Assembly (NCBI GenBank): GCA_900553675.1
Contig: USEH01000052.1
Location: forward strand, 1-11,574
DNA length: 11,574 nt
Origin: an uncultured Ruminococcus sp.
Lineage (GTDB): Bacteria; Bacillota; Clostridia; Oscillospirales; Ruminococcaceae
Direction: 5' to 3'
Part shown: positions 1,631-10,705 of the stretch, one piece after another
How the letters are laid out: every line of letters begins with the position of its first letter
Numbering within the stretch: position 1 is the first letter of the stretch
Notes under the pieces: generated by a model
Told to the model about the DNA's origin: nothing
The model's database searches: none
What the model saw: the letters and a program-made list of their open reading frames with translations, nothing else
Made by a program: the position numbers and the translations under genes

Positions 1631-3454
1631 ATGTGCGGCTTTGTTGGATTTACAAATAATATACAAAATGCAGACGTTGTTTTGGAACACATGAAGGACG
1701 CTATAAAGCACCGAGGACCGGATTCTGAGGGGTCTTATATCGACGATAGGATTGCCCTTGGATTCAGACGGCTTTCTATAATAGACCTTTCTATGGGCGC
1801 TCAGCCGCTTTACAACGAGGATAAGTCAATCGTCCTTGTCTTCAACGGCGAGATATACAACTATCAGCCCCTGCGCGAGCAGCTGTTAAAATGCGGTCAT
1901 ACCTTCGCCACAAACACCGATTCCGAAGTCCTCATTCACGGCTACGAGCAGTGGGGCAAGGAGCTTTTAAACAGGCTGAGAGGAATGTTCGCATTTATAA
2001 TCTGGGATAAAAACAAAGGTGAGATATTCGGCGCGCGCGATTTCTTCGGAATAAAGCCGCTTTACTACGCTCAGATGAGCGGAGTTTTCATGTTTGGTTC
2101 AGAGATAAAGAGCTTTTTGCATCACCCTGCCTTTAATAAGGTATTGAACGAAGAGGCTTTGGAGAACTACCTGACATTCCAATACTCTCCCTGCGTTGAA
2201 ACCTTCTTCAAGGGAGTTTACAAGCTTCTGCCCGCCCATTATTTCATATATAAGAACGGCGTTTTAAAGACCGAGCGTTACTGGAATATCGACTTCAATG
2301 CCGATGAAAAGCCGGATTTGGACCAGTGGGTCAACATGATATCCGATACCTTTAAAAACTCGGTAGAAGCCCACAAGATTGCGGACGTCGAGGTCGGAAG
2401 CTTTTTATCAAGCGGAGTGGATTCGAGCTACGTCGCGGCAGTTGCAAACGTTGACAAGACCTTTACCGTCGGCTTCGGTGAGGACGAAAGATACAACGAA
2501 ATCGGCTATGCCAAGGAGTTTTCAAAGTACATCGGCAAGGAGAACATCTCCAAGGTGATTTCGGCAGAGGAATACTGGGGCGAGTTTCCCAAGATACAGT
2601 ATCACATGGACGAACCGCTTGCCGACCCTGCGGCAGTTGCGCTTTACTTTGTCTGCAAGCTGGCTTCGGAAAGAGTAAAGGTAGTTTTAAGCGGCGAAGG
2701 CGCGGACGAAATTTTCGGCGGCTACAATATCTACAAGGAACCGGACGATGTTGCAATATACAACGCCGTCCCCCGCCCCATCAGACGTGGAATCGGCAAG
2801 CTTGCCGCACACTTTCCGCACAAGCGCGGAGTAAACTTCTTTATCCGCCGTGGAAAGGACTTGGAGGAGCGCTTTATCGGCAACGCATATATCTTCTCGG
2901 AAGACGAAAGAAAGTCCATCCTGAAAATTAAGACCAACGCGCCCAAGGCAATGGAAATAACCAAGCCGTTTTACGATCAGGTTAAGGACAAGGACAACGT
3001 CACCAGAATGCAGTTTTTGGACCTTAATATGTGGATGACCGGCGACATACTTTTAAAAGCCGACAAAATGAGTATGGCAAACTCGCTGGAGCTGCGTGTG
3101 CCATTCCTTGATAAAGAGGTTATGGCTTTGGCAGAGCGGATTCCCAAGCGATATAGAGTCACCAAGGAAAACACTAAATACGCTATGCGCATGGCGGCAC
3201 ACCGAGCCTGCCCTCCTCAGACGGCAGATAAAAAGAAGCTCGGCTTCCCTGTTCCCATCCGTGTCTGGCTGAAAGAGGACGAATACTACAACAAGGTTAA
3301 AGCCGAATTTGAAAGCGTGAATGCAAAGAAATTCTTCAACACCGACAAGATAGTTTCGCTTTTAGACGACCACCGCGCCGGAAAATACGACTACTCCCGC
3401 AAGATTTGGACGGTTTACACCTTCCTTGTCTGGTATAAGGTTTATTTTGGATAA
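1631..3454 (+). CDS. asnB: Asparagine synthetase, glutamine-hydrolysing (class II amidotransferase)
   Basis: Cytosolic enzyme converting aspartate, glutamine and ATP to asparagine, glutamate, AMP and pyrophosphate; 607 residues, typical for the family. The N-terminal glutaminase domain (about 1-200) begins Met-Cys-Gly-Phe: Cys2 becomes the N-terminal nucleophile after Met removal, which fixes the start at 1631. KHRGPDS (27-32) and FNGEIYNY (71-78) are further family motifs. The C-terminal synthetase domain has the ATP-binding PP-loop SSGVDSS (260-266) and GEGADE (355-360). It is monocistronic, with its own promoter and a strong terminator. Codon choice is richer in C and G than in the metallophosphoesterase and GNAT genes downstream, by eye. 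Related AsnB-type enzymes can amidate cell-wall or secondary-metabolite substrates, but nothing nearby suggests that, so the asparagine-making role is the default call. Confidence 0.95.
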   Translation: MCGFVGFTNNIQNADVVLEHMKDAIKHRGPDSEGSYIDDRIALGFRRLSIIDLSMGAQPLYNEDKSIVLVFNGEIYNYQPLREQLLKCGHTFATNTDSEVLIHGYEQWGKELLNRLRGMFAFIIWDKNKGEIFGARDFFGIKPLYYAQMSGVFMFGSEIKSFLHHPAFNKVLNEEALENYLTFQYSPCVETFFKGVYKLLPAHYFIYKNGVLKTERYWNIDFNADEKPDLDQWVNMISDTFKNSVEAHKIADVEVGSFLSSGVDSSYVAAVANVDKTFTVGFGEDERYNEIGYAKEFSKYIGKENISKVISAEEYWGEFPKIQYHMDEPLADPAAVALYFVCKLASERVKVVLSGEGADEIFGGYNIYKEPDDVAIYNAVPRPIRRGIGKLAAHFPHKRGVNFFIRRGKDLEERFIGNAYIFSEDERKSILKIKTNAPKAMEITKPFYDQVKDKDNVTRMQFLDLNMWMTGDILLKADKMSMANSLELRVPFLDKEVMALAERIPKRYRVTKENTKYAMRMAAHRACPPQTADKKKLGFPVPIRVWLKEDEYYNKVKAEFESVNAKKFFNTDKIVSLLDDHRAGKYDYSRKIWTVYTFLVWYKVYFG

Positions 3455-3471
3455 TCTTTTAAGAATAATAG

Positions 3472-3511
3472 AAAAATCCGTTCCTGCAAGAATAAGCAGG
3501 AGCGGATTTTT
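3472..3511. terminator. Bidirectional intrinsic terminator
   Basis: A 16-bp stem (3472-3487 with 3496-3511, one G-T wobble) closes an 8-nt loop and is flanked by A5 on one side and T5 on the other. It can therefore terminate in both directions. It serves the plus-strand asparagine synthetase gene and the convergent minus-strand GNAT gene, whose stop codon begins 5 nt beyond the stem. Confidence 0.93.
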
Positions 3512-3516
3512 GTTGA

Positions 3517-5025: not shown

Positions 5026-7257
5026 TTATGCCTTAGCAAGAACGGTTTTCTCAACCTTTTTCATCTTTGTGGTCTTGCGCTGTGCCATAACCAAGCCGTA
5101 ATATACGCCCTTTTTGCGCATAAGCTCGTCATGAGTGCCCATTTCGGCAAGCCTTCCCTTATCTAAAACGATAAGCTGGTCGGCATTGGAAAGAGTTGAA
5201 AGACGGTGCGCGATTGCAATGGTCGTTCTGCCTTCGCACAGGCGGTTAAGACCCTCCTGAATCTGGCGCTCGGTTTCGGTATCCAAAGAAGCAGTGGCTT
5301 CATCAAGAATGATTATCTTAGGATTGTGCAGAATAGCAGGCGCGATTGCGATACGCTGACGTTCGCCGCCCGAAAGAGTGTGTCCCTTGTTGCCAACGCG
5401 GGTGTTGTAGCCGTCCGGCAGCTTGGTGATAAACTCATGAGCATGAGCGATTTTTGCGGCTTCGACTATCTCCTCAAAGGTGGCGTCCGGCTTTGCATAT
5501 GAAATGTTGTCTAAAACGCTTCCATCAAACAGATATGTCTCCTGCAAAACAACGCCGACCTGCGAACGCAGGCTTTGCTGGGATATCTTGCGGATATCAA
5601 CGCCGTCAATCTTAACGCTGCCCTGCGTAACGTCGTAAAGTCTTAAAATAAGGTTTATCATAGTGGACTTTCCAACGCCGGAGTGACCAACTATACCTAT
5701 CATCTTGCCCTTTTCTATCTTGCAGGTGACATCCTTAAGAACAGGGTTGTATACCTTATAGCCAAAGTAAACATGGTCGAACTCGATATCGCCATTTATG
5801 TCAAGGTCAACGCAGTCCTTCGAGTCCTGAACGTCGGTCTGTTCCTCTAATATCTCGAATACCTTGGAGGCACTGACAGAAGCATCCGCAAAGGTTCTGG
5901 GAAGCTGCATCAGCCAACGCATTGGGGTATACAGCATGGTTATATAGGATGTGAACTGAGTCAACTCGCCAAGAGTCATGCTTCCCCAGCCGGGAACATA
6001 GTCTAAAACCATCTTGGCTCCGAAGAACAGAACAAGGTAGTTACCGAAGGTCAGAAGAAAGTCGGTTATAGGCCATATGAGATTCCACACAACCTCGGCA
6101 TCGGAAGCGGCTTTCGCCCACTTGCCGGAGGCTTTTTCGTACTTGTCGATTTCATTTCTTTCGGTACCACAGGATTTTACTACTTTTATGCCATTGAGTG
6201 CATCGTGCAGAAGTCTTGAATGATTGTTAGAGCATCTCCACGAACGCGAGAAGTGCATATGAATAACGTTGTAAAGACGCTTTACGATAACCATTACAAA
6301 CGGAATCGGGATAACCGCAAGCAATGCAAGCTTCCAGTTCATTGCAAAGGCTATTACCATTACAATTATCAGCGAGAAAATGCGCACGATAGCCTGCTTG
6401 CCGTTATCGGTAATAAAGCTTTGAAGCTTGTTAGCGTCGTTGGAGACACGGCTTATAAGTTCGCCGGCAGTCTTTTTTGAGATGGAGGTCATGCTGAGGT
6501 CGAGGGTCTTGTTGAAAACATCCTGTCTTAAATCCTGACCCAAATTCAGCGCTACATAGTAGCTTGATCTCATATTTATAAAGTTGAGTATAACATTTAC
6601 GATAACCGAACCCAGCAGCGCGGCGCACAGCAGCGCAAAACCGCTCCAGCGGATGTTCTCAACGGTTGCAGCCTCCTGCGCAGGTATAACGTAATTGTCT
6701 ATCAGCAGACGGTTGACGTAAGGCGTTATAACGCCCACCAGCTCGCCAAAAATGGTGCATATGATTGCAACAAGGAACACCCACTTATAAGGTGCAACGC
6801 GCTTGATTAGCTTTGAGAACACCTTTATTTTAGATGTGCAATAAGGGCATTCGGTGTAGCCGTCGAGCGGGAGATGACACTTAGGGCACTTTGGCTCGTC
6901 GATATCGCTTTCCTCAACAAGCATACCTGTTGTGAGATAGTGATTGAGTATCTTCGCTACCTCAGCAAAGGATATAAACTCGTCGTTTGTGAAAGCGCAG
7001 ATACATTTTTCGGTGACATCTTCATGACGTCCGACAAGCATTGAACAGCCCACAAGCTGTTCGCAGGCGTATTCGTCGTAATCATCAAAATTATAGGTTT
7101 CCTTTAGCTCCCCGTCGACGTAAACCTCGATTGTCTTATTATGGGTTACGCAAAGGTTTCCCTTGACCTTCTTCGCCTTTCCGTAAAGGTTAAATGGCAA
7201 TGCGAACAGAAAATCGTCAAGGCTTTTTCCATCGGGAGCTGAAAGCTTAAGATTCAT
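5026..7257 (-). CDS. ABC half-exporter with N-terminal zinc ribbon (second subunit)
   Basis: A 743-residue type IV ABC exporter half-molecule. An unusual cytoplasmic domain (about 1-115, mixed strand/helix, perhaps PH-like) leads into a zinc ribbon with Cys124/Cys127 and Cys137/Cys140. The six-helix membrane domain covers about 150-455. The nucleotide-binding domain (about 488-730) has Walker A GHSGVGKST (524-532), Q-loop Gln572, signature LSGGE (628-632), Walker B IIILDE (648-653, catalytic Glu653) and switch His684. The usual Arg of IARAI after the signature is Pro640 here. The start at 7257 has AAAGGA upstream with a somewhat long spacing. It is the last gene of the operon, 45 bp after the DUF1854 gene. 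The likely partner is the 835-residue half-exporter, as a heterodimer driving ATP-dependent export; the substrate is unknown. Confidence 0.9.
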   Translation of the reverse strand: MNLKLSAPDGKSLDDFLFALPFNLYGKAKKVKGNLCVTHNKTIEVYVDGELKETYNFDDYDEYACEQLVGCSMLVGRHEDVTEKCICAFTNDEFISFAEVAKILNHYLTTGMLVEESDIDEPKCPKCHLPLDGYTECPYCTSKIKVFSKLIKRVAPYKWVFLVAIICTIFGELVGVITPYVNRLLIDNYVIPAQEAATVENIRWSGFALLCAALLGSVIVNVILNFINMRSSYYVALNLGQDLRQDVFNKTLDLSMTSISKKTAGELISRVSNDANKLQSFITDNGKQAIVRIFSLIIVMVIAFAMNWKLALLAVIPIPFVMVIVKRLYNVIHMHFSRSWRCSNNHSRLLHDALNGIKVVKSCGTERNEIDKYEKASGKWAKAASDAEVVWNLIWPITDFLLTFGNYLVLFFGAKMVLDYVPGWGSMTLGELTQFTSYITMLYTPMRWLMQLPRTFADASVSASKVFEILEEQTDVQDSKDCVDLDINGDIEFDHVYFGYKVYNPVLKDVTCKIEKGKMIGIVGHSGVGKSTMINLILRLYDVTQGSVKIDGVDIRKISQQSLRSQVGVVLQETYLFDGSVLDNISYAKPDATFEEIVEAAKIAHAHEFITKLPDGYNTRVGNKGHTLSGGERQRIAIAPAILHNPKIIILDEATASLDTETERQIQEGLNRLCEGRTTIAIAHRLSTLSNADQLIVLDKGRLAEMGTHDELMRKKGVYYGLVMAQRKTTKMKKVEKTVLAKA

Positions 7258-7302: not shown

Positions 7303-7842
7303 TTAAATGTAGATTTCCAGCACAGCTAAACTCTTCTTGTCAAGCTTGTTGATATCGTCGCAGAAATACTTGTTTCCGTCAACATCCAGCGCATAAAGAT
7401 ATTTGTCTGTAAGAAGTCTGAAATTGGAATACCAGTCGCGGATGCAGATGGTTTTTCTGCCAGCTGTGGTATCAATATCAACGAAAATGAATCCCCTTGA
7501 ATTGTCCTTTATGGAATAAACCTTTGTTATTTCCGGCATGAAGTACTTGTATTCGAGATATTCGTCAACAAGCTTATACTGCTCGTCGGTCAAATCCTTC
7601 ATATCCTTTATAACGCCGATTTCTTTAAATTCGCGGTCTTCATTGTCGTATGCGACGCTGATATATGTAGTCTTGGAGTAAAACGGAATCAGCCTTGTAA
7701 GGCGGACGTTGAAATACTCCTGACCGTCATACTTCAAAGATACGAATCCGGCTTTATCTCTGAAAAATTCAAGCTTTTTAGCATCGAGCAGTTCAAGCTT
7801 ATCTACCTCAAAAAGCTCTTCCTGAAGTTCTTTCTTATCCAT
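7303..7842 (-). CDS. DUF1854 protein, accessory to the ABC pair
   Basis: A 179-residue soluble protein with no signal peptide or membrane helix. I assign it to DUF1854 from the overall pattern: FFR (26-28), a central RLIPFYSKTTYISVAY region (50-65) followed by an acidic patch and an EIGVIKDMKDL segment (74-84), YFMPEI (100-105) and a C-terminal DVDGNKYFCDDI...LD (153-168). DUF1854 has no established biochemical activity. In some proteobacteria members sit beside cyanophycin synthetases together with ABC transporters, but no such synthetase is in this window. The gene lies between the two half-exporters: 14 bp after the first stop, with GGGAGG overlapping that gap, and 45 bp before the next start. 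This tight placement suggests a cytoplasmic subunit or regulator of the transporter. The family call is from memory of the pattern, not a search. Confidence 0.75.
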   Translation of the reverse strand: MDKKELQEELFEVDKLELLDAKKLEFFRDKAGFVSLKYDGQEYFNVRLTRLIPFYSKTTYISVAYDNEDREFKEIGVIKDMKDLTDEQYKLVDEYLEYKYFMPEITKVYSIKDNSRGFIFVDIDTTAGRKTICIRDWYSNFRLLTDKYLYALDVDGNKYFCDDINKLDKKSLAVLEIYI

Positions 7843-7856
7843 ATTGTTTTCCTCCC

Positions 7857-10364
7857 TTATTCCTCAATGAACTTAAGCGCATCCGCCTGAAGCTTATAAA
7901 GCTCGAAGTATTTGCCCTTCTGACGGATCAGCTGATCGTGAGTTCCAAGCTCCTTAAGCTCGCCGTTTTCTATAACGCAGAGCATATCTGCGTCGCGCAG
8001 GGTTGAAAGCCTGTGAGCGATGGAGATGATCGTTCTGCCGTCCTTCAAGGCGTCTATAGCAACCTGAATCTTGCGCTCGGTGCGGGTATCCATAGAAGCC
8101 GTTGCTTCGTCGAGAATGAGTATATCCGGGTCCTGAATGATAGCTCTTGCTATTGAAATTCTCTGGCGTTCGCCGCCCGAAAGCGATACTCCGCCCGAGC
8201 CGATCTTGGTGTTATAGCCGTCCGGCAGCTTGGTTATAAATTCGTGAGCATTGGCGGATTTTGCCGCCTCGATAACCTCTTCAATGGTAGCATCCGGCTT
8301 GGCATAACGGATATTGTCGGCAATCGTGCCGATAAACAGGTAGGTCTCCTGCGAAACTATACCGATATTGCGCCGCAAATCCTCGGTTGCTATCTTCTTT
8401 ATCGGAACGCCGTCGATTGTTATCTCGCCGGAGGTGACATCATAAAGCCTTGCCATAAGGTTTATTATGGTTGACTTACCTGCGCCGGTACGTCCTACAA
8501 TGCCGAACATCTGTCCGGATTTTACCTTGAAGGAGAGATTTTTAAGAATCTGATGTCCGGCTTCGTATTCAAAGAATACGTTCTTGAACTCGATATCGCC
8601 CTTCATATTAGCCATTCTGACAGGGCTTATCTGCTTTTTAACGATATTGCCGTTTTCGTCCTTCTCCTCGGCAAACTCTGGTTCAGCCTCGCGGACGGTG
8701 GGCTTAGCGTCCAGTATCTCGAACATACGCGAAGCGGCGTCTATACATCTTGCCCAGCGGTCGCCTATCCACATAAAGAAGTCTATAGGCTCATAGATCA
8801 TGCCGGTATAGGAAAGTAAGACCTGCAAAGCACCGTATGTAAACACCTTGCCGCCGAACTCGTGATGAATCATTACCAAGTAGCAGCCCACGCAGAACAG
8901 TCCTATACTGATAAGCTGATAGAAGCCCCAAAGGAACGGAACGGTTGATGTGATTCTTTCATTGATGCGGGTGTTGACCTCATAAGCGTCTCTGTTTTTC
9001 TTCTGATATCTGGCGATTTCCTTGCGCTCCTTGGCAAAGGACTTAACTACTCGCTGACCGTTCATAACGTCGGAAAGCACCGAGTTAAGACTGCGCATTG
9101 CAACATCCAGCTTGCGGTAAAGCTTTCTTTCAGACCTATACAGGTGATTGTCGGCGAACAGCACCGCGCAGATGATAACCATTATCGCAGCAGTAAGAAT
9201 CGGGCTTATAAAAATCATTATAGCGGCAACGCCGACAAGCTTTATGATATTCGCAACGCCATAAGGCACAATATCTACAAAGAAGCCGTAAACGTTGTTA
9301 GAGTCGCGGTCGACTCGGGACATAAGCGAGCCGGTCTGCTTGCTGGTGAAGAACTGAAGCGAGAGGTGGCTCATTGCTGCGTAAATCTTAGTGCGGAGCT
9401 GATGCGTTACGCGCGGAACGACCTTTGCGGTTATGATTCCCGAAACAAGTCCTGTTATCTTACTGAGGACATTTGTAAGTATCATCAGCAAAACGACAAG
9501 CAGAACCTGACCGTAGAATTTTCCGCCCGGCTTTAAAACGTCGTCGTAGAGCATTTTTGAGCCGAACCACGGGGATATTACCGCAAGAACGTTTGACATC
9601 AGTATAGTAAGCATAATAAGAGCTACTGCCCACTTGAAATCGCGGAACATTCCCAAAAGCTTTGTGAATATCGAACGCTTATCCAAGCATCTGGGACAGA
9701 TAGGTCTGTTGGGGTTGGGATAAGGCTGATGGCAGGTTGGGCAGATTGTTTGAAGAGAATCAAGCTGACTGTCGTCGATTTCCTCGTGACGGTGAGTCTG
9801 ATTCAGCCTCTCGCAGAAACGCTCGAACTTTTCGCAGTAGCCGATTGAGAATCTTGCTATCTGGATATTGTCTCTGTCATGCTCATAGCTCAGACCAAAC
9901 CAGCCGAATTTCATGCCGAAATCCTCAACGTCTGCATTTTCCTGTTCGTTATCCGGCTTTGGCTGCTCTTCAACCTCACCGTCTTTGAGCATCGCTATGA
10001 TAAGGCGCGCAGAGTTCTGGTTGCGGTCTACAAATATATTCTTTATTTTTGCAATGTCATACTCTGAAAAGTCAACAACCTTATAGCTGACCATCTCGCG
10101 CACGGGCGCGGTTTTAAAGAAGCTTTTTACCACGGGAATATCACGGGCTTTTTCCTGAAGCTTCTCTTTTCCGGAAATCTGCCTGTATTCCTCGTATCCG
10201 CTTATTACATAAAGGGTATCGGAGGTGAAAGTAACGTAAACGTCGTAATACTTTCCCTCGCCGTCCAGATCGGCTTTAACGCAGTACAAAAGCCGGTCAG
10301 TAATAACTCCACGCTTTTCAAGCTCGTTTGAAACAAGCTGAGGAAGCGCGTCAAAATACTTCAT
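7857..10364 (-). CDS. ABC half-exporter with long N-terminal domain and zinc ribbon (first subunit)
   Basis: An 835-residue half-exporter. Residues 1-200 form a cytoplasmic domain rich in strands, possibly two PH-like units split by an acidic linker (about 128-148). A zinc ribbon follows, with Cys208/Cys211 and Cys223/Cys226. The membrane domain spans about 240-545. The nucleotide-binding domain (about 588-835) has Walker A GRTGAGKST (624-632), Q-loop Gln672, signature LSGGE (728-732), Walker B ILILDE (748-753, Glu753) and switch His784, all canonical. An insert at about 560-583 precedes the ATPase domain. I chose the ATG at 10364 because AAAGGAA lies 7 nt upstream. An in-frame ATG at 10472 would add 36 residues but has no binding site and falls in the attenuator leader. 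It is the first structural gene of the operon, probably forming a heterodimer with the 743-residue subunit. Confidence 0.9.
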   Translation of the reverse strand: MKYFDALPQLVSNELEKRGVITDRLLYCVKADLDGEGKYYDVYVTFTSDTLYVISGYEEYRQISGKEKLQEKARDIPVVKSFFKTAPVREMVSYKVVDFSEYDIAKIKNIFVDRNQNSARLIIAMLKDGEVEEQPKPDNEQENADVEDFGMKFGWFGLSYEHDRDNIQIARFSIGYCEKFERFCERLNQTHRHEEIDDSQLDSLQTICPTCHQPYPNPNRPICPRCLDKRSIFTKLLGMFRDFKWAVALIMLTILMSNVLAVISPWFGSKMLYDDVLKPGGKFYGQVLLVVLLMILTNVLSKITGLVSGIITAKVVPRVTHQLRTKIYAAMSHLSLQFFTSKQTGSLMSRVDRDSNNVYGFFVDIVPYGVANIIKLVGVAAIMIFISPILTAAIMVIICAVLFADNHLYRSERKLYRKLDVAMRSLNSVLSDVMNGQRVVKSFAKERKEIARYQKKNRDAYEVNTRINERITSTVPFLWGFYQLISIGLFCVGCYLVMIHHEFGGKVFTYGALQVLLSYTGMIYEPIDFFMWIGDRWARCIDAASRMFEILDAKPTVREAEPEFAEEKDENGNIVKKQISPVRMANMKGDIEFKNVFFEYEAGHQILKNLSFKVKSGQMFGIVGRTGAGKSTIINLMARLYDVTSGEITIDGVPIKKIATEDLRRNIGIVSQETYLFIGTIADNIRYAKPDATIEEVIEAAKSANAHEFITKLPDGYNTKIGSGGVSLSGGERQRISIARAIIQDPDILILDEATASMDTRTERKIQVAIDALKDGRTIISIAHRLSTLRDADMLCVIENGELKELGTHDQLIRQKGKYFELYKLQADALKFIEE

Positions 10365-10513: not shown

Positions 10514-10551
10514 CACAAAAATACCCCTGACGCTTTTTATAGCATCAGAGG
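10514..10551 (-). terminator. Intrinsic attenuator terminator ahead of the ABC operon
   Basis: On the minus strand a 10-bp stem (10551-10542 with 10533-10524, including G-T wobbles) closes an 8-nt loop and is followed directly by TATTTTTG. It begins 11 nt after the leader-peptide stop codon and about 160 nt before the first ABC start. It therefore lies between the promoter and the structural genes, where it can only make sense as a conditional terminator. Its ascending arm has an alternative partner in the leader-peptide coding region. Confidence 0.85.
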
Positions 10552-10603
10552 GCTGCCAGACTTAACTGTTAGCAGAGTGTGATAATCGCGCACTGCTGAT
10601 GCT
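10541..10603 (-). promoter_or_regulatory. Mutually exclusive antiterminator pairing
   Basis: AGCATCAG (minus strand, 10603-10596, leader codons 13-15) is an exact 8-base complement of CTGATGCT (10548-10541), which forms most of the terminator's ascending arm. Pairing the two prevents the terminator. A third short hairpin, AGCAG (10598-10594) with CTGCT (10577-10573), overlaps the first segment and could release the terminator arm. This is the layout of ribosome-mediated attenuation: a ribosome held early in the leader leaves AGCATCAG free, and one reaching the stop codon masks it. The structure is read from the sequence; the mechanism is inferred. Confidence 0.65.
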
Positions 10604-10639
10604 TATAATTAACATATTCAATACATTAGCCTCACGCAT
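10562..10639 (-). CDS. Leader peptide of the ABC operon (25 residues)
   Basis: A small ORF starting ATG at 10639 and ending TAA, encoding 25 residues that begin MREANVLNMLII and end in SARLSHSANS. It has a strong AAAGGAG site (10648-10654) 8 nt upstream, better placed than that of the ABC gene itself. The transcript from the promoter at 10677-10705 would start about 30 nt ahead of it, so it is the first thing translated. It is serine-rich (7 of 25) with a hydrophobic middle, but has no run of one amino acid that would mark a biosynthetic attenuator. The comparable known case is BmrB, the leader peptide of the B. subtilis bmrCD exporter genes, although I see no sequence similarity to claim. 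Its likely role is to sense ribosome speed. Confidence 0.7.
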   Translation of the reverse strand: MREANVLNMLIISISSARLSHSANS

Positions 10640-10676
10640 CTATCTCACTCCTTTCGTATTTTAACAAGGCGTGTTA

Positions 10677-10705
10677 ATTATATACCCCTTTTTTAGTATT
10701 GTCAA
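10677..10705 (-). promoter_or_regulatory. Consensus promoter of the ABC/DUF1854 operon
   Basis: Minus strand -35 TTGACA (10700-10705), a 17-bp spacer and -10 TATAAT (10677-10682): a perfect match to the housekeeping sigma-70/sigma-A consensus with ideal spacing, preceded by A/T-rich tracts. Transcription should begin near 10670. A promoter this strong ahead of an exporter operon fits control by the downstream attenuator rather than at initiation. Confidence 0.88.

Follow-up and report, generated by a model that had tools for sequence, protein, structure and literature searches.

In Bacillus subtilis the leader bmrB precedes the two ABC half-transporter genes bmrCD. A translated short ORF, an intrinsic terminator and a predicted antiterminator and anti-antiterminator were described for this leader (PMC4191407). 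According to the excerpts of that report, bmrB comprises 53 codons and its terminator is located within the ORF; nt 60-162 of the ORF contain each of the three predicted structures, and the authors left open what the anti-antiterminator does (PMC4191407). Loss of the start codon abolished the induction by lincomycin. Inhibitors of the 50S subunit including chloramphenicol, erythromycin and lincomycin were named as inducers, kanamycin and gentamicin were not (excerpts of PMC4191407). The tlrB (yxjB) leader of the same species consists of a leader peptide, an intrinsic terminator and an RNA sequestering a Shine-Dalgarno (SD) sequence, and a stalled ribosome leads to read-through (PMC6851288). 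Its peptide has 9 residues with the tylosin-specific arrest motif RYR, and an overlapping antiterminator was not found as far as the excerpted report describes (PMC6851288). Ribosome-mediated transcription attenuation with leader ORF and intrinsic terminator was also reported for msrDL and mefAL, the leaders of mefA-msrD, which encode the short drug-specific arrest peptides MYLIFM and MTASMRLR (PMC10314930). According to the excerpts of that paper, it is the stalled ribosome that blocks the msrDL terminator; an antiterminator is not described in them (PMC10314930).

The leader investigated here is located on the minus strand of an 11,574-nt stretch of DNA from an uncultured Ruminococcus sp. 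(contig USEH01000052.1), named the window in the following, ahead of an ABC-DUF1854-ABC exporter operon. Like bmrB, as far as the excerpts go, it combines a short ORF, an intrinsic terminator and alternative antiterminator and anti-antiterminator pairings ahead of two ABC half-transporter genes. In contrast to bmrB with its terminator inside the coding region, the window has its terminator behind the stop codon, and the SD and start codon of the leader itself serve as region 1 in the predicted anti-antiterminator. With tlrB it shares a leader in which a peptide and an intrinsic terminator are combined with RNA that sequesters an SD. However, the sequestered SD is, by the excerpted description, that of the resistance gene in tlrB and mainly that of the leader itself in the window, where an overlapping antiterminator is also predicted. 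With msrDL and mefAL the window has attenuation via leader ORF and intrinsic terminator in common, but it differs from msrDL, as excerpted, by its predicted antiterminator. Judged by sequence, the leader would work in the manner of bmrB, except that its own start site serves as region 1.

Amino-acid attenuators such as that of E. coli trp form three mutually exclusive helices, 1:2, 2:3 and 3:4, which are read by the position of the ribosome. The window leader is predicted to form the same three helices; in contrast to the trp type it contains no repeated control codon and is not located ahead of amino-acid genes. No paper was found in a literature search combining Ruminococcus, leader peptide and transcription attenuation, with subscription papers outside the search. 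Expression of the ABC-DUF1854-ABC operon is probably governed by transcription attenuation that depends on translation of the leader and reports ribosomes held on the first codons. If true, widespread and mostly uncultured gut Clostridia couple this exporter to ribosome arrest, and a first regulatory clue to the function of DUF1854 exporters would be given.

Parts of the leader

All parts are located on the minus strand. The sigma-70-type promoter TTGACA-N17-TATAAT (10677-10705) matches the consensus in 12 of 12 positions. It is followed by the leader ORF of 25 codons, MREANVLNMLIISISSARLSHSANS (10562-10639), with the SD AAAGGAG at 10654-10648, 8 nt ahead of the ATG. The terminator scan detected an intrinsic terminator with U tract (10515-10553); its stem covers 10551-10524 by the scan, or 10553-10523 with more pairs, and ATTTTTG follows directly. 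The perfect promoter and the 25-codon ORF with strong ribosome binding site, both claimed in the initial annotation, were found again. The terminator described there is present as well, but it begins 8-10 nt past the stop codon and not 11 nt. Folding of the 163-nt leader gave a z of -4.3, and none of 200 shuffles was as good.

Codons 13-15, AGCATCAG (region 2a, 10596-10603), are the putative 5' arm of the antiterminator. The ascending arm of the terminator (region 3, 10541-10553) contains their exact 8-base complement, CTGATGCT (10548-10541), just as claimed before. The best duplex between ORF and arm in the window reached -16.9 kcal/mol (z -4.7), and 0/300 dinucleotide shuffles were as good. 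A third arm was absent from the initial annotation: the region with the SD and start codon of the leader (region 1, 10630-10655) pairs with codons 16-22 (region 2b, 10573-10592), which would act as anti-antiterminator by sequestering the leader's start. The duplex of regions 1 and 2b amounts to -19.4 kcal/mol, with a borderline p of 0.055 in shuffles of the window alone. As read from its sequence, the window leader is a 1:2 / 2:3 / 3:4 attenuator layout with three arms rather than two. As in ribosome-mediated transcription attenuators, a short ORF with SD is located between promoter and structural genes, an intrinsic terminator lies between this ORF and the first gene, and an alternative pairing overlaps the ORF and competes with the terminator.

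Conservation of the leader

A genome scan yielded 59 loci, mostly from Ruminococcus, Oscillospiraceae and uncultured Clostridia. Readable upstream DNA was available for 55 of them, after exclusion of L016, L028, L052 and L057, in which the gene start is missing. A leader ORF with SD and a hairpin were found at the same position in 51 of the 56 upstream regions (window and 55 relatives), and 52 of the 56 carry a promoter with 11 or 12 of 12 matches. No promoter match was detected within 420 nt for L042; the contig of L047 ends 182 nt upstream, and the hairpin of L046, assigned by hand, has a weak T run. The set of 53 leaders used below does not include L006, L007, L008, L039 and L059, which have no leader. 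In L006-L008 the exporter start lies 78 nt behind a 12-of-12 promoter, and neither leader nor terminator intervenes, in difference to the sister loci L003-L005. These three represent a natural leaderless version of the operon and, if the attenuator is true, a natural contrast set of three relatives.

The leader peptides diverge strongly, with lengths of 19-51 residues in the 53 leaders. The initial annotation had named a lack of conservation of leader ORF or pairing among relatives as refuting the switch. The comparison gave the opposite result: the ORF retains its position and frame and the pairings are conserved, whereas the peptide sequence is not. The stop codon is located 4-45 nt past region 2b in all 53 leaders. 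Frame 0 is open from the start through region 2b in 37/37 non-redundant leaders, compared to 2/37 and 8/37 for the other frames; this test is tilted to frame 0, since the ORFs were picked as the best SD-bearing frame. By best duplex, the distance between start and region 2a spans 19-125 nt, and therefore no fixed length of the nascent peptide is given.

Both pairings were examined by swapping the partners between loci. For the 1:2 pairing none of 20,000 permutations matched the true partners (z -12.2 with 53 loci, z -10.4 with the 37 non-redundant loci). The 2:3 pairing with its own partner was likewise better than with swapped ones (z -6.3 with 53 loci, z -6.5 with 37; 0/20,000 permutations each), although these permutation figures overstate independence because the loci share kinship. 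A separate partner-swap run gave the same picture. Compared to shuffles of the own composition, the 1:2 pairing reached a mean z of -2.52 with p<0.05 in 36/53 loci. The same measure at the start of the exporter gene, used as control with 50 loci, gave a mean z of 0.06 and p<0.05 in two. For the 2:3 pairing the mean z was -1.19, with p<0.05 in just 18/53 loci, when the SD was excluded from the 5' leader; a first test with the whole 5' leader including the SD resulted in a mean z of -0.73, and in 10/49 loci at most 10 of 200 shuffles were as good. With the search range extended to the terminator, the best partner of the SD/start region fell within the ORF in the 53 leaders. Four aligned leaders had 96.7% of cells paired in a base-pair count, but two-sided changes were absent and the count did not exceed that of shuffles; the row of L035, the cultured relative Ruminococcus bicirculans 80/3, is misaligned near the start codon in this column-wise covariation. 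An alignment of seven leaders was assessed by inspection alone. This comparison of sequences establishes the parts as well as the two alternative pairings, and the switch of the window is probably a real, conserved attenuator.

A plain expression limiter, or a terminator governed by a protein or ligand, with an incidental ORF is a very improbable explanation. A strong intrinsic terminator by itself would indeed lower expression. However, the frame of the ORF and the placement of its stop codon are conserved together with two pairings that exclude one another, and no Rfam family was detected at its gathering score: the search, run by E-value, gave three matches in the window, all below their gathering scores, and the sole match over the leader had 19.3 bits compared to a gathering score of 60.

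In a wider sampling DUF1854 was present in 41/297 genomes of one family and in 29/31 genomes of the nearest relative's genus. This sampling provided 52 regions, of which 31 were duplicates of earlier loci and nine were without gene start, so that 12 distinct ones were kept. Judged by eye, a leader is present in two of these 12 more distant upstream regions. The switch is therefore a trait of the clade and not of every DUF1854 operon. In four distant DUF1854 operons (L148, L150, L156, L157) another conserved leader element lies ahead of the first exporter gene, at a distance of about 50-150 nt. It centres on GGCTGCATGAA ... CCCGGCACGGAGG, no Rfam family matched it at gathering score, and it may be a further RNA regulator of this operon.

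Predicted response to ribosome position

The leaders were folded with ribosome-sized masks, using transcripts which ended ahead of the descending arm and at equilibrium, not kinetically. Averaged over the 53 leaders, the pairing between arm 3 and the ORF was 0.16 with no ribosome and 0.56 with the start covered, but it amounted to 0.08 when region 2 was covered and to 0.12 when the ribosome was placed at the stop codon. For the window values of 0.31, 0.86, 0.05 and 0.05 were obtained. Masking of the start raised the antiterminator by >0.05 in 46/53 leaders; the other seven showed no gain, and one of them lost pairing. In leaders with shuffled middle the pairing rose from 0.18 to 0.32 on start masking, in the window's own shuffles from 0.24 to 0.30. 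A rise of >0.3 was found for 33/53 real leaders compared to 105/530 shuffled ones. In this model the pattern is that of an attenuator which is off without translation, off at fast translation and on with a ribosome on the first codons. This three-state logic is a computed one.

We infer that the attenuator operates in the cell as follows. In the ribosome-free leader RNA, region 1 with SD and start codon would fold onto codons 16-22 (region 2b). This fold would hide the leader start and hold codons 13-15 (region 2a) off the terminator, and transcription would end at about 10515. A ribosome of normal speed would cover region 2 and be released just beyond it, so that the terminator would again be able to form. 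With a ribosome held on the first codons, region 1 could not pair, region 2a would be set free to grip region 3, and RNA polymerase would continue into the exporter genes. The initial annotation had proposed that the operon is switched on by slowing of ribosomes early in the leader. Conservation, partner-swap tests and masked folding support this logic, while the SD/start arm had been overlooked.

General early arrest of ribosomes is the likelier signal, since the peptides diverge, no residue is universal and the motif +X+ is found in 18/53 leaders; by analogy with bmrB, translation inhibitors would be the obvious cause. A translation inhibitor, and not another cause of early ribosome arrest, would probably be the natural signal. 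We tentatively propose, as one possible reading, that the leaders are clade-wide sensors of start-codon occupancy. In each leader the start site would be shut by codons further along the same ORF. The operon would be opened solely by ribosomes trapped during initiation or on roughly the first nine codons, and the peptide sequence would be irrelevant. Such irrelevance of the peptide would make the leader a general sensor of early ribosome arrest, caused by drugs or otherwise. If this is true, early arrest is reported through exporter transcription whatever the peptide sequence, and a peptide-independent attenuator design, with a sensor closing its own start codon, is added to the known ones.

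Drug- and peptide-specific attenuation, in which a nascent motif such as +X+ arrests only the drug-bound ribosome as in MefAL, ErmDL and TlrB leaders, is unlikely for these leaders. Twelve of the 18 leaders with +X+ have it within the first 14 residues, and one clade shows a near-invariant I-R-M right before region 2a; ATACGA is found in 12/53 leaders. But +X+ is missing in 35/53 leaders, and the window leader, one of these, has no R/K-X-R/K motif as known from macrolide arrest leaders. Peptides and their lengths diverge, while the pairings are conserved. In the clade mentioned (L017, L019-L025, L027, L029) the sequence ATACGAATG encoding Ile-Arg-Met is nearly invariant while the rest of the leader varies, and no pairing accounts for the whole of ATACGAATG in these ten loci.

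Slightly less likely still is amino-acid attenuation, by which the leader would gauge one charged tRNA via control codons in the spacer. Asparagine is the best candidate: codons 2-12 of 37 leaders contain 55 Asn where 33 were expected (z 4.0), and 45/53 leaders have Asn within these codons. However, Asn, the commonest residue there, is absent from codons 2-12 of eight of the 53 leaders including the near relative L001, and Ala is enriched too. No amino acid is common to codons 2-12 of all 53 leaders, in agreement with the earlier statement that a repeated regulatory codon is lacking. Neither runs in the window leader nor the conserved runs of one regulatory codon typical of amino-acid attenuators were found, and the operon is without amino-acid gene. 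The idea of a pause at the rare codon CGA was rejected as well. CGA accounts for 18 of the 74 Arg codons in 37 leaders compared to 5% in the exporter genes, yet it is equally common out of frame (18, 11 and 21 by frame), and therefore reflects base content and not codon choice.

The exporter operon

The genes behind the leader are also encoded on the minus strand. The first ABC exporter half-transporter gene (7857-10364; Pfam ABC_membrane and ABC_tran) was listed as an ORF of 871 codons at 10472-7857. It probably starts 36 codons later, at Met37 (10364, not 10472), because the homology of the protein begins at residues 30-39 in 49/55 loci, and before residue 20 in none of the 55, and a good SD, AGGAAAGG, is located upstream of 10364. 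It is followed by the DUF1854 gene (7303-7842; Pfam PF08909), and this in turn by another ABC exporter half-transporter gene (5026-7257). The two ABC genes flank DUF1854 in the same order in 56/59 loci, and the three others are cut by contig ends. To our knowledge, bmrCD is without a DUF1854 gene.

Heterodimeric ABC exporters of the BmrCD type have one degenerate ATP site, the catalytic Glu being replaced in one nucleotide-binding domain (NBD). Such a replacement was not found in the window: both NBDs carry LSGGERQ and ILDEA, with catalytic Glu and signature kept. For DUF1854 a structure model was obtained with a pLDDT of 86.8 and a pTM of 0.58. It gave no match to PDB folds at E <= 0.001, the sequence had no substantial match among PDB entries (best E 0.2), and a literature search, with subscription papers outside its range, found no paper naming DUF1854. 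The ABC-DUF1854-ABC operon may have a role in multidrug export.

The nearest NCBIfam names are 'cyanophycin metabolism-associated' (NF052233, NF052234), with scores below the cut-offs (494.8 and 537.4 bits vs 880; 49.2 vs 150). Cyanophycin synthetase (TIGR02068) exceeded its cut-off in none of eight relatives' genomes, the best score being 272.7 vs 850 bits. A link of the operon to cyanophycin was rejected on the basis of these eight genomes.

Two further features were noted on the minus strand of the window. An Rfam match to the histidine operon leader at 3412-3516, near an asparagine-synthase-like gene, reached 29.6 bits compared to a gathering score of 49 and is probably due to chance. A second terminator-like hairpin is located at 10895-10866, just past the upstream DUF1846 gene, and thus the exporter promoter would be isolated from read-through.
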